Shown here piece by piece: positions 3 through 50,574 of a stretch of DNA of 64,000 nucleotides. Position 1 is the first letter of the stretch, and each line of letters begins with the position of its first letter. The stretch spans positions 620,001-684,000 of the forward strand of contig CAMFII010000002.1 in assembly GCA_945952585.1 (NCBI GenBank), in the 5' to 3' direction. Position numbers and translations under genes: made by a program. The notes under the pieces are model-generated. The model made no database searches. It was given only the letters and a program-made list of their open reading frames with translations, and had not been told where the DNA came from. This DNA comes from an uncultured Rhodobacter sp. Its GTDB lineage: Bacteria; Pseudomonadota; Alphaproteobacteria; Rhodobacterales; Rhodobacteraceae.

Positions 3-203
3 AGCCTGGATTTCGAGGATCATCCCTTCGTTGCCTCGAAGGCCGAGCATGACTGCGACCTGTGCGGGGCCGCTGACAGCTATCTGGATGAGGTCATCAC
101 CGACGATCAGGGCAACCGCATGTTCGTCTGCTCTGACACCGATTATTGCCGTGGCCGCCGGGCGGCGGGGCAGGTCGGGCGGCTTGGGGGAGAGGCGGCG
201 TGA
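3..203 (+). CDS. phnJ: C-P lyase core subunit PhnJ, C-terminal fragment
   Basis: Only the last 66 codons are present; the gene enters from the left edge. PhnJ is the radical-SAM subunit of carbon-phosphorus lyase, which cleaves the C-P bond of ribose-1-phosphonate-5-phosphate in phosphonate degradation. The fragment carries the end of the cysteine pattern typical of the family: CDLC at about residues 18-21 of the fragment and, about 22 residues later, CSDTDYC. These match the metal-binding cysteines of the PhnJ C-terminus. The TGA stop overlaps the GTG start of phnK, so the two are translationally coupled. Identification is strengthened by the phnKLNM genes that follow. Confidence 0.9.
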   Translation, partial: SLDFEDHPFVASKAEHDCDLCGAADSYLDEVITDDQGNRMFVCSDTDYCRGRRAAGQVGRLGGEAA

Positions 204-1024
204 CCGGACGAATTTTCTACGAAAATTCTGAAATTTCGCAGAAATTTCGGGGTGCGGAGCGGCCGCTGCTGGCCGTGCGTGGGCTGACGAAGCGCTACGG
301 GGCGCGGATTGGCTGCGCCGAGGTCAGCTTCGATCTCTGGCCGGGCGAGGTCCTGGGCATCGTCGGCGAAAGCGGGTCGGGCAAATCGACGCTGCTCTCC
401 TGCCTTGCCGGACATCTGGCGCCGGACGAGGGCGAGGTGGTGTTCGACACCGCCGACGGTCTGCGGGACACTGTCGCCATGGCAGAGGCCGAGCGGCGGC
501 GGTTGGCGCGGACCGACTGGGCCTTCGTCCACCAGAACCCGCGCGACGGGTTGCGCATGGGGGTGAGCGCCGGCGGCAATGTCGGCGAGCGACTGATGGC
601 GGTGGGCGCGCGGAACTACGGGACGATCCGGGGACAGGCGCTGGACTGGCTGGGGCGGGTCGAGATCGCCGCCGACCGGATCGACGACCGGCCGCGGGCC
701 TTTTCGGGCGGGATGCAGCAGCGCCTGCAGATCGCGCGGAACCTTGTCACCGGACCGCGGCTCGTGTTCATGGACGAGCCGACCGGGGGGCTCGACGTGT
801 CGGTGCAGGCGCGACTTCTGGATCTGCTGAGGGGGCTCGTGCGCGAGATGGGGCTGTCGGTCATCATCGTGACCCATGACCTTGCCGTGGTGCGGCTATT
901 GGCCGACCGGTTGATGGTGATGAAGGGGGGGCGCGTGGTCGAACAGGGGCTGACCGATCAGGTGCTGGACGATCCGCAGCATGCCTATACGCAGCTTCTG
1001 GTGTCCTCGGTCCTGCAGGTGTGA
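200..1024 (+). CDS. phnK: C-P lyase ABC-type ATPase PhnK
   Basis: ABC-type ATPase that binds the C-P lyase core complex; it is not part of a transporter. The 274-aa product has Walker [10 protein letters not shown], the signature [14 protein letters not shown], Walker [11 protein letters not shown] and the switch histidine in VTHD. The stretch [20 protein letters not shown] and the ending [10 protein letters not shown] are almost those of E. coli PhnK. The start is GTG at 200, overlapping the phnJ stop. This gives an extension of about 17 residues before the usual PhnK N-terminus ([10 protein letters not shown]). The extra stretch is encoded by the palindromic element at 210-248. A later GTG near 275 would remove it, so the start is the uncertain part. 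Confidence 0.93.
210..248 (+). repeat. Two-hairpin palindromic repeat, copy A, within the 5' end of phnK
   Basis: Two adjacent perfect stem-loops. GAATTTT-CTACG-AAAATTC occupies 210-228 and GAAATTT-CGCAG-AAATTTC occupies 230-248. Each has a 7-bp stem and a 5-nt loop. The same pair of loops, CTACG then CGCAG, recurs at 50316-50369 with compensated stem changes. The element is AT-rich against a very GC-rich background and is read in frame without a stop, encoding a peptide around [13 protein letters not shown] at the PhnK N-terminus. Confidence 0.8.
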
Positions 1025-48420: not shown

Positions 48421-49374
48421 ATGGCCGAGACTCCCATTGACCGACTGGCGCGGAATACGCCTGCATCCGTTGCGCACCGCGTGCGCGGATTGAGTGACAG
48501 GGCGATCGCCTGGGCCTTCGTGACGCCGACGATCCTGCTTCTGCTCGCGATCAATATCTTCCCGCTGATCTGGACCATCCGTCTCAGCTTTACCAACTTC
48601 CGCGCCAACCGCCCGAACGAGCCGGTCGAATTCGTGGGCTTGCGCAACTACCAGCGCATCCTGACCGATCCCGACATCTGGCACACGATGCAGGCGACCG
48701 CGCATTTCCTGTTCTGGACGCTGTTCTTCCAGGTGCTGATCGGGTTCGGCCTGGCCTGGCTCATCAATCGCAAGTTCAAAGGCAATGACCTTCTGACCAC
48801 GCTGATCGTCTTGCCGATGATGCTGTCGCCAGCGGTCGTGGGGAACTTCTGGACCTTCCTCTACCAACCGCAGATCGGGCTTTTCAACTACGCGGTCGAA
48901 TTCCTGACAGGCAACAGCGTTCCTGCCTCGTCCTTCACCATGCTCGGCTCGGTCGAGCTGGCGCCCTGGGCGATCGTGATCGTGGACACCTGGATGTGGA
49001 CGCCTTTCGTCATGCTGATCTGCCTCGCCGGCCTCAGGTCGATCCCCGATTACATCTACGAGGCGGCCGAGGTCGACCGCGCCTCCAAGTGGCGCCAGTT
49101 CTGGACGATGACGATCCCGCTGGTGCTGCCCTTCCTGATGCTGGCCGTGCTGTTCCGGGGCATCGAGAACTTCAAGATGTTCGACCTCGTGGTGCAGCTG
49201 ACGGGCGGGGGACCGGGCGACACGACGCTGCTGACCTCAATCGAGCTGAAGCGGGAGGCCTTCGAGAAATGGCGCACCGGCTTCAGTTCCGCCTACGCGA
49301 TCATCCTGTTCGTGACCGTCTTCGGCCTGGCCTCGATCTATGTGAAGGCCCTCAACAAGGTTAAGGAAAGATGA
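48421..49374 (+). CDS. Carbohydrate ABC transporter permease (MalF/UgpA type)
   Basis: 317 aa, start ATG 48421. Six transmembrane helices; the first covers AWAFVTPTILLLLAINIFPL. SFTNFRANRPNEPVEFVGLRNY is the typical first periplasmic region, and the EAA loop is IYEAAEVDRASKWRQFWTMTIP at about 215-236. It forms the channel with the following gene, which overlaps it by 4 bp. Confidence 0.9.
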   Translation: MAETPIDRLARNTPASVAHRVRGLSDRAIAWAFVTPTILLLLAINIFPLIWTIRLSFTNFRANRPNEPVEFVGLRNYQRILTDPDIWHTMQATAHFLFWTLFFQVLIGFGLAWLINRKFKGNDLLTTLIVLPMMLSPAVVGNFWTFLYQPQIGLFNYAVEFLTGNSVPASSFTMLGSVELAPWAIVIVDTWMWTPFVMLICLAGLRSIPDYIYEAAEVDRASKWRQFWTMTIPLVLPFLMLAVLFRGIENFKMFDLVVQLTGGGPGDTTLLTSIELKREAFEKWRTGFSSAYAIILFVTVFGLASIYVKALNKVKER

Positions 49375-50312
49375 GCGCCTACTCCGTCACCGCGCCCTCG
49401 CGCCGGTCCAAGCTCGTCGCAGGCGCGCTGGTGCTGCTTTACACGGTCATCACGCTTCTTCCGCTGCTCTGGATCATCTCGACCGGGTTCAAGACCGGGC
49501 CGGACTCGATCGCCTATCCTCCGAAGGTGTTCTTCTCGCCGTCGCTCGAAGGCTATGTGAACCTTTTCACCAGCCGGACCCGCGCCACCAACGAGCAGCT
49601 GGCCGAGATGCCGCCGCCCGCGAACTGGGTGGACGAGATCGTGCGCCGCCGGAACGAGGTCATCACCGGGCCGTCGCGCTTTGGTGAGCGGTTCATGAAC
49701 TCGGTCATCATCGGCTTCGGCTCGACCTTCCTGTCGATTTTCCTGGGCACGCTGGCAGCCTATGCCTTCTCGCGCTTCCGCGTGCCGCTGAAGGACGACC
49801 TGATGTTCTTCATCCTCTCGACGCGGATGATGCCGCCGATTGCCGTCGCGATCCCGATCTTCCTGATGTTCCGTGGTCTTGGCCTGTCGGACACGCATCT
49901 GGGGATGATCCTGCTTTACACCGGCGTGAACATCAGTCTGGCCGTCTGGCTGCTGAAGGGCTTCATCGACGAGATCCCGCGCGAATATGAGGAAGCGGCG
50001 TTGATCGACGGCTATACCCGGTTCCAAGCCTTCCGGAAGGTGGTGCTGCCGCAGGCGGCGACCGGCATTGCCTCGACCGCGATCTTCTGCCTGATCTTCG
50101 CCTGGAACGAATACGCCTTCGCCGTGCTCCTGACCTCGGGCAACGCCCAGACCGCGCCGCCCTTCATCCCGACGATCATCGGCGTCGGCGGTCAGGACTG
50201 GCCGGCGGTCGCGGCAGGCGCCACGCTGTTCCTGTTGCCGGTCATGGTCTTCACCATCCTTCTGCGCAAGCACCTGCTGCGCGGGATCACCTTCGGGGCG
50301 GTGCGCAAATGA
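49371..50312 (+). CDS. Carbohydrate ABC transporter permease (MalG/UgpE type)
   Basis: 313 aa, six transmembrane helices, EAA loop EYEEAALIDGYTRFQAFRKVVLP at about 205-227. The periplasmic loop between helices 1 and 2 is longer than usual (about 75 residues, with ATNEQLAEMPPPANWVDEIV). Partner of the preceding permease. The palindromic repeat copy B begins 3 bp after its stop. Confidence 0.9.
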   Translation: MSAYSVTAPSRRSKLVAGALVLLYTVITLLPLLWIISTGFKTGPDSIAYPPKVFFSPSLEGYVNLFTSRTRATNEQLAEMPPPANWVDEIVRRRNEVITGPSRFGERFMNSVIIGFGSTFLSIFLGTLAAYAFSRFRVPLKDDLMFFILSTRMMPPIAVAIPIFLMFRGLGLSDTHLGMILLYTGVNISLAVWLLKGFIDEIPREYEEAALIDGYTRFQAFRKVVLPQAATGIASTAIFCLIFAWNEYAFAVLLTSGNAQTAPPFIPTIIGVGGQDWPAVAAGATLFLLPVMVFTILLRKHLLRGITFGAVRK

Positions 50313-50315
50313 CCC

Positions 50316-50369
50316 GATTTTTCTACGAAAAATCCCGTCGCGCTGCTTCCGAATTCTCGCAGAATATTC
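50316..50369 (+). repeat. Two-hairpin palindromic repeat, copy B, intergenic
   Basis: GATTTTT-CTACG-AAAAATC (50316-50334) is a perfect 7-bp hairpin. After 16 nt it is followed by GAATTCT-CGCAG-AATATTC (50351-50369), a weaker hairpin with the same CGCAG loop as copy A. It lies in a 73-bp gap inside an ABC operon, between a permease gene and a small membrane-protein gene. Confidence 0.75.
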
Positions 50370-50385
50370 GTGGGGAGGGCCGTTC

Positions 50386-50574
50386 GTGACCCGCTTCCTG
50401 TCCGGCCTTGCCCGGTTCCGCCGCGGTCCGTGGGAAATGCTCGCGACCATCCTGATCGCGCTTGGCGTATTTATGCTGATGCAGCCCTTCGTACTCTGGG
50501 CCTTCACCTGGAGCTTCATCGTCACTCTTGTCGGCACGGTCATGTTCATCATCACCAGCCATTTTCCGGACTGA
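50386..50574 (+). CDS. 62-aa two-helix membrane protein in the sugar operon
   Basis: 62 aa, start GTG 50386 with GGGGAGGG upstream. A short basic N-terminus (FLSGLARFRRGPWEM) is followed by two hydrophobic helices at about 18-38 and 41-58. It lies between the permeases and the first ATPase and ends 3 bp before the ATPase start, so it is clearly part of the operon. It could be an accessory subunit of the transporter. No named family was recognised with confidence. Confidence 0.75.
   Translation: MTRFLSGLARFRRGPWEMLATILIALGVFMLMQPFVLWAFTWSFIVTLVGTVMFIITSHFPD

Follow-up and report, generated by a model that had tools for sequence, protein, structure and literature searches.

A REP-like dispersed palindromic doublet in an uncultured Rhodobacter, with copies in coupled reading frames at operon junctions

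Repeats of the REP type are defined as mainly extragenic. In E. coli, BIMEs provide an example of hairpin repeats within ABC transporter operons, such as the one between malE and malF. To our knowledge, they are not known as translated mini-ORFs that couple one gene to the next.

Among described systems, REPINs or REP doublets offer the closest comparison. According to the sections of PMC3116915 on which we draw, they consist of short palindromes arranged as inverted pairs around a linker of variable length, are over-represented and extragenic, and show changes on both sides of the predicted hairpin. The family described here is similar in these respects, but it has no detected RAYT, tens rather than hundreds of copies and A/T-rich stems, and its covariation lies inside each half. 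The GTAG and CGTC REP superfamilies, as presented in parts of PMC3733652, are also found near the 3' ends of convergent and same-strand ORFs, form inverted dimers, and occur in some ORFs; in our family, however, neither a terminal tag nor a CCA tail consensus was seen. The same parts of PMC3733652 report that CGTC REPs also exist without a dedicated transposase and prevail in Alphaproteobacteria, and assign RPE-4 and RPE-6 to the CGTC group. Rickettsia palindromic elements (RPE) are palindromes translated in frame within unrelated proteins, a fate also predicted for some copies here. Most of our copies, in contrast, are intergenic and the translated ones sit at start/stop overlaps; the likeness is drawn at the level of description. 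A preliminary description of this DNA had drawn the Rickettsia parallel, which holds as an analogy for translation only; by architecture and location, the closest kind is the REP/REPIN.

Literature searches on palindromic intergenic and REP repeats in Rhodobacteraceae or Rhodobacter, and on Rickettsia elements, REPINs, and template switching, returned no description of the family. The main text of PMC3733652, figures aside, contains no mention of Rhodobacter, Paracoccus, Roseobacter, Ruegeria, or Dinoroseobacter, and the covered portion of PMC12306157 does not name Rhodobacter, Rhodobacteraceae, or Paracoccus. We regard it as a new family of the REP-like kind, one sublineage of which is predicted to be translated in a way that leaves coupling intact.

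Structure and distribution of the doublet

The window, that is, the whole stretch of 64,000 nt analysed, holds two copies of the doublet (Table 1). The coordinates and pairing of copy A were re-read from the sequence and agree with the preliminary description; when the closing C-G pair is counted, both of its stems are 8 bp long and enclose loops of 3 nt. For copy B, the perfect first hairpin with its compensated stem was borne out, and the second hairpin has two mismatched pairs. The ortholog of this second hairpin in the relative G001 has a perfect stem. Only copy A had been placed in a coding region. It does lie in the phnK frame, and the observation is richer than first stated because copy B also sits in a coupled frame. 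The motif TTTCTNCGAAA occurs three times in the window, against 0.04 expected. An Rfam scan of the window gave no match at gathering score, and a scan of four loci gave two weak matches below it, both in locus L214 and away from the element; a known RNA family was ruled out on these results.

Table 1. Features around the two copies of the doublet in the window
Feature	Position	Strand	Remarks
phnJ, 3' part	3..203	+	TGA stop (201-203) overlaps phnK GTG
GGGGGAGAGG	186..195	+	purine-rich, Shine-Dalgarno-like, upstream of GTG 200; read from sequence
phnK	200..1024	+	GTG 200 start, 274 aa; repeat inside N-terminal tail
Copy A, half-site hairpin 1	210..228	+	loop CTACG; GAATTTT-CTACG-AAAATTC, perfect
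Copy A, half-site hairpin 2	230..248	+	loop CGCAG, inverted relative to hairpin 1; GAAATTT-CGCAG-AAATTTC, perfect
ABC transporter permease gene (BPD_transp_1)	49371..50312	+	upstream of copy B
Mini-ORF MTRFFYEKSRRAASEFSQNIRGEGRS	50309..50389	+	26 codons, holds copy B; ATG overlaps permease stop, TGA overlaps next GTG
Copy B, half-site hairpin 1	50316..50334	+	GATTTTT/AAAAATC, perfect, compensated stem
Copy B, half-site hairpin 2	50351..50369	+	GAATTCT/AATATTC, two mismatched pairs
Small ORF	50386..50574	+	62 aa; GTG overlaps mini-ORF stop

The half-site core TTTCTRCGAAA occurs 62 times (31 + 31) in the 3.9 Mb genome, compared with once (0 + 1) for a reversed-pattern control. The expectation of a dispersed palindromic family was thus confirmed, and the case that there are no further copies genome-wide can be dismissed. 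The cores fall in 37 loci, 34 of which bear stems; L110, L122, and L127 lack palindromic stems and were dropped as chance occurrences. A tolerant search of the stretches fetched from the same genome (674 kb including the window) gave 34 clusters, namely 29 '><' pairs, one '>><', and four single half-sites. This agrees with the many copies and mostly inverted doublets of REPs and REPINs, and the '<>' orientation appears once among these 34 and the 28 clusters of G001. Each element consists of two inverted copies of a 19-bp palindrome with the consensus C-GAWWTTTCTRCGAAAWWTC, in which the W positions covary between the arms. The two half-sites of an element begin 20-56 bp from each other; distances of 20 and 30-36 bp are frequent, and 8/29 are exactly 20 bp. 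A 20-spaced pair with at most three mismatches occurs at ten places in the genome and none in the control, and an identical 39-mer at three unrelated loci (the window, L194, and L200) points to copying or conversion.

The distribution is patchy and not genus-specific. Cores exceed controls in all seven genomes of the genus that were examined. At least one core is present in 275/295 genomes of the family Rhodobacteraceae, most counts being low and like those of their controls, and a clear excess is found in a few other genera (e.g., G076, G083, G097, and G222). The 20-spaced pair is present in 12/18 chosen genomes. Strict exact pairs occur in 8/10 chosen genomes of other genera and in 3/50 named relatives, namely Pseudotabrizicola alkalilacus (L012, four), Rhodobacteraceae bin.139 (L013, two), and Loktanella sp. 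DSM 29012 (L050, one). These pairs contradict the earlier suggestion of a family restricted to one genus. A DNA uptake sequence was set aside because the copies number in the tens and the halves are palindromes in their own right. Comparison with phages, plasmids, and viral contigs gave no match, and such cargo was rejected on this basis.

The RAYT Y1 transposase domain PF01797 was found in none of 17 element-bearing genomes, some of which are incomplete drafts, compared with 2/14 other genomes of the family and 5/14 named controls including E. coli. A RAYT-driven REPIN was rejected on this basis. In the bases flanking 65 half-sites, an unpaired GTAG or CGTC end tag is absent; a C stands outside in 62/65, and on the inside the flank is mostly A, C, or T followed by G (48/65). 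Although the family works like a REPIN population, we did not file it as REPIN because neither a RAYT domain nor a GTAG/CGTC tag was found.

As with extragenic REPs and REPINs near gene 3' ends, 28 of the 34 elements lie at most 20 nt past a stop codon, according to a simple codon-usage gene caller. Its calls come from a simple script that is wrong in at least two places, L212 and 50316, the latter really being a same-strand site. The preliminary picture of an element that invades genes does not describe the family, which is mainly intergenic, with translated copies at start/stop overlaps. Elements between convergent genes number 13/34 as called and 12/34 with 50316 corrected, against 122/586 gene pairs; with the corrected count this is a modest excess, at p 0.037 relative to gene pairs and 0.003 relative to intergenic bases. 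An intrinsic terminator (G+C-rich hairpin plus U-tract) made by the element was found at none of three of the 34 loci that were scanned, and this role was rejected. The scan found no terminator at either window copy and one weak site at L214:10050-10063, a short G+C-rich hairpin at the gene 3' end that lies outside the element and uses the T run of the element as its tail, as if the element supplied the U-tract. Similar arrangements were seen by eye at L208 and L217. At L215:9997-10071 and L280, a G+C-rich terminator-like hairpin lies within the element linker in both species, the letters differing.

Covariation was tested in the part of the stem that the search core does not cover. Watson-Crick pairing at 3-17 is present in 58/62 half-sites of the own genome, 38/40 of G001, 46/47 of G002-G006, and 52/52 of other genera (a set in which G222:C19 was entered twice), against shuffle means of 29.4, 18.7, 22.2, and 23.9, respectively; in each set, 0/2000 shuffles matched the observed value. 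The four sets have some sites in common and are partly dependent. A-T and T-A are about equally common, with a few G-C. In line with the compensated change noticed earlier between copies A and B, outer stem positions covary in all four sets. Positions 3/17 and 4/16 are paired within both halves in 26/29 elements and across halves in 7/29, and a long-range hairpin was rejected as the conserved unit on these counts. Folding alone does not decide between the local and cross-half readings: in 5/6 elements tested, copy A included, the halves pair with each other in the RNA fold of minimum energy, and the DNA fold joins them in 3/5 strands, copy B and the + strand of copy A folding locally. The pairing favours hairpins that form locally at some stage, or palindrome repair by template switching, over a single long RNA stem. 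Loop-loop kissing was also rejected, as the loop letters of the two halves show no visible covariation (9, 9, 8, and 3 for the four combinations).

Reading frames at phnJ/phnK and other operon junctions

In 72/80 named relatives, a start that overlaps the phnJ stop is fused to phnK, and the window keeps this arrangement through GTG 200. We therefore take GTG 200 as the phnK start, which would make the copy A hairpins coding. The next in-frame GTG, at 275, lies within the conserved LLxVRGL segment, past the point at which PhnK homology begins, so that a PhnK beginning after position 250 does not fit. On this reading of the frame, PhnK is very probably translated through the hairpins. The window PhnK has 20 residues before its homology to the solved chain 7z15_I, presumably E. 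coli PhnK, which has two. A gain of about 15 residues over E. coli had been proposed; extra N-terminal residues are indeed present, but the net gain is about 8 relative to the empty sites of the same genus. The element is also present in PhnK of G001, with its frame unchanged; the phnK site of the same-genus genomes G003-G006 is empty with ATGA, and an ortholog search for phnK in G002 gave no match.

Other unusual sequences occur at this junction. In other Rhodobacteraceae (L058, L062, and also L079), mini-ORFs running from the phnJ stop to the phnK start again contain A/T-rich hairpins, here unrelated ones (L079 by eye). The Gemmobacter MAG L016 has one imperfect half-site in frame in PhnK (MSLHSTEFSQKV...). 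In L009, L010, and L013, PhnK tails begin with MGAV... and the DNA is GGTATTT/AGTATTT..CAAG-like, perhaps another dispersed repeat.

A second type of junction is represented by the copy B mini-ORF. At L194, L198, L200, and L203 of the own genome, an ATG overlapping the upstream stop opens an ORF of 21-22 codons whose TGA overlaps the next ATG, with the peptide pattern M-x-x-R-[IV]FYE[NY]SEISQKFR.... A sublineage with a 1-nt linker is located 6 nt past ATGA/GTGA operon overlaps and always in one frame. When a tight junction is defined by a whole element at most 16 nt from the genes on both sides, the element of 7/9 tight same-strand junctions occupies an open frame with a start that overlaps the stop of the gene before it; L198:14064 and L220 are without a coupled start. 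An overlapping read-through start was found in 8/17 same-strand cases (50316 counted among them) and in 2/22 ends that face a convergent gene (Fisher p 0.011, post hoc). Such starts are common anyway, as 82/359 same-strand gene pairs overlap by 4 or 1. At L194, four of four relatives that lack the element have a direct TGATG overlap, and the insertion therefore has stop-start overlaps on both flanks. At L220, the upstream stop has changed from TGA to TAA and the mini-ORF start is lost, whereas G001 retains the start; translation is therefore not essential at this locus.

In-frame insertion into a coding region is found in PhnK and possibly at L218, where the element frame runs into an RbsD/FucU-family gene that also has a possible start past the element. 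The other translated copies are separate mini-ORFs. A run of ten G between the element and this RbsD/FucU-like gene (L218:12766-12779), in frame with an upstream ATG, is a possible slippery or phase-variable tract. Genes beside elements are often of the ABC transporter class, which may be chance; only the class is claimed because most named matches fall below NCBIfam cut-offs.

Conservation and turnover among relatives

The peptide as a rule is not conserved. Comparison of the own genome with G001 gave seven synonymous and three non-synonymous changes for the 50316 mini-ORF, whereas the other five compared frames, including L220 without its start, sum to 8 and 47, below the 24-27% synonymous expected without constraint. 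Selection on the peptide was rejected on these counts, except possibly at 50316. Indels are absent from the compared own/G001 frame pairs, and in G002 the L194 ortholog is longer by 12 nt. L198/L265 have lost their second hairpin along with much of the peptide, and the start, length, and stop remain. From the synonymous counts, the lack of own/G001 indels, and L198/L265, the open coupled geometry seems to be tolerated or useful, although the lost start at L220 speaks against this.

For 23 of the 34 own elements, both flanks were matched in G001 stretches; by program, 21 of these hold the element and two do not, L198 retaining a single half and L218 having decayed. In the reverse direction, 23/28 G001 clusters were matched in own stretches, and one (L191:2370) is absent from the own genome. 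The shared fraction is inflated because stretches were chosen for exact cores in each genome. Over 15 shared sites, identity is 94% in the half-sites and 51% in linkers of at least 8 nt, figures that are inflated twice, by the exact-core choice of stretches and by the omission of 8 of the 23 flank-matched sites, in which one half was decayed beyond four changes. Stem letters have changed in 13/30 half-sites at these sites, with 13 one-sided and four two-sided pair changes, which looks like decay at many sites.

Flank-DNA searches at three loci are free of the exact-core bias. At L213, G001 has a remnant and five other genomes have no core within one mismatch. At phnK, G001 is filled and four genomes are empty; at L194, G001 is half-decayed, G002 is filled, and four are empty. 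Some positions recur across genera: of 28 element rows outside the genus, seven have a neighbour that shares 60% identity or more with a neighbour of an own element, several of these loci having been chosen for likeness to the 20-spaced type. The recurring sites include L206 at the EF-P gene (G348, with both neighbours, and G391), L212 (G222, G348, and G363), and L218 (G083).

Probable origin and possible roles

The explanation that we consider probable is a REPIN-like dispersed palindromic doublet whose copies multiplied in the genome at an earlier time and have since been kept, or are slowly decaying, just 3' of stop codons, with a putatively translated sublineage that preserves coupling. 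Against this explanation stand the lack of a detected mobilising enzyme and of any phage, plasmid, or viral-contig match, the mostly one-sided stem changes, the lost start at L220, the two tight junctions without a coupled start, the predicted folds that join the halves, and the errors of the gene caller. Ribosomes would read this sublineage as a 14-letter peptide, either fused to the next protein, as in PhnK, or within a mini-ORF of about 22 codons, and the overlap of the mini-ORF stop with the next start would keep translational coupling. The doublet may have been spread by a non-RAYT enzyme that acts on single-stranded hairpins and may confer some benefit, or be tolerated, at gene ends. A bolder proposal, on the unlikely side in our judgment, is that a mobile palindrome lineage targets, or survives only at, ATGA/GTGA junctions; its own open frame would regenerate the stop-start overlap on both sides and so form a self-contained coupling module, which could be taken up without polarity by operons, often ones for ABC transporters.

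The hairpins may instead be host-functional RNA elements of mRNA 3' ends (bidirectional terminators, mRNA-end stabilisers, or processing sites) under purifying selection, their dispersal being ancient and incidental. We regard this as a tentative possibility. Positions that recur across genera (7/28 rows; L206, L212, and L218), half-sites better conserved than linkers (94% versus 51% at 15 shared own/G001 sites), and the convergent excess (12/34 versus 122/586, p 0.037) are consistent with it, but the conservation figure is inflated twice and several of the other-genus loci were picked for their 20-spaced likeness. In addition, the scans of three loci show no terminator made by the element, copies have been lost (the L213 remnant in G001 with no core in five others), the G001 element L191:2370 is absent from the own genome, and pairing is kept within halves (26/29) and not across them (7/29) even though the cross-half hairpin is the usual predicted RNA fold. 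That compensated stem changes arise from template switching during replication, which repairs imperfect palindromes with no selection on RNA, appears rather unlikely. Base pairing of existing stems can be fixed in one event (according to parts of PMC8794818), and across the genome few half-sites lack the 3-17 pair, which is A-T about as often as T-A. Against this, one-sided changes exceed two-sided ones by 13 to 4, so that single-event repair is not dominant at shared own/G001 sites, and spacer inversion, described in parts of PMC8604942, would flip the loop, whereas the '><' orientation is nearly constant.

Two further explanations concern the product or a binding protein. It is most improbable that the 13-letter peptide defines a functional micropeptide family: the same frame with a similar peptide recurs at six own loci (one without a start), lengths are equal in own/G001 pairs, and 50316 shows the 7 to 3 ratio, but the remaining frames (8 versus 47) fall below the unconstrained expectation, L198/L265 kept the ORF and lost much of the peptide, and the L194 ortholog in G002 differs in length. 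The palindromic form, fixed orientation, and frequent 20 and 30-36 bp spacings would also suit half-sites that each serve as operator for a dimeric DNA-binding or chromosome-organising protein. This is very unlikely, however, as symmetric protein contact alone does not require arm covariation at degenerate positions, the copies are located 3' of stop codons, and a scan of three regions gave no sigma-70-like promoter.

For the doublet as a REP-like population, the absence of a detected RAYT raises the question of how such elements spread. At several junctions the family lies within open frames and the stop-start overlaps are re-formed around it, which suggests a way for a palindromic repeat to enter a tightly coupled operon and leave expression intact. 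With both empty and filled sites available in close relatives, operon entry and spread can each be tested. The make-up of single elements also differs between relatives, as at L207:9997-10092, where a triple element ('>><') is found and G001 has a double.
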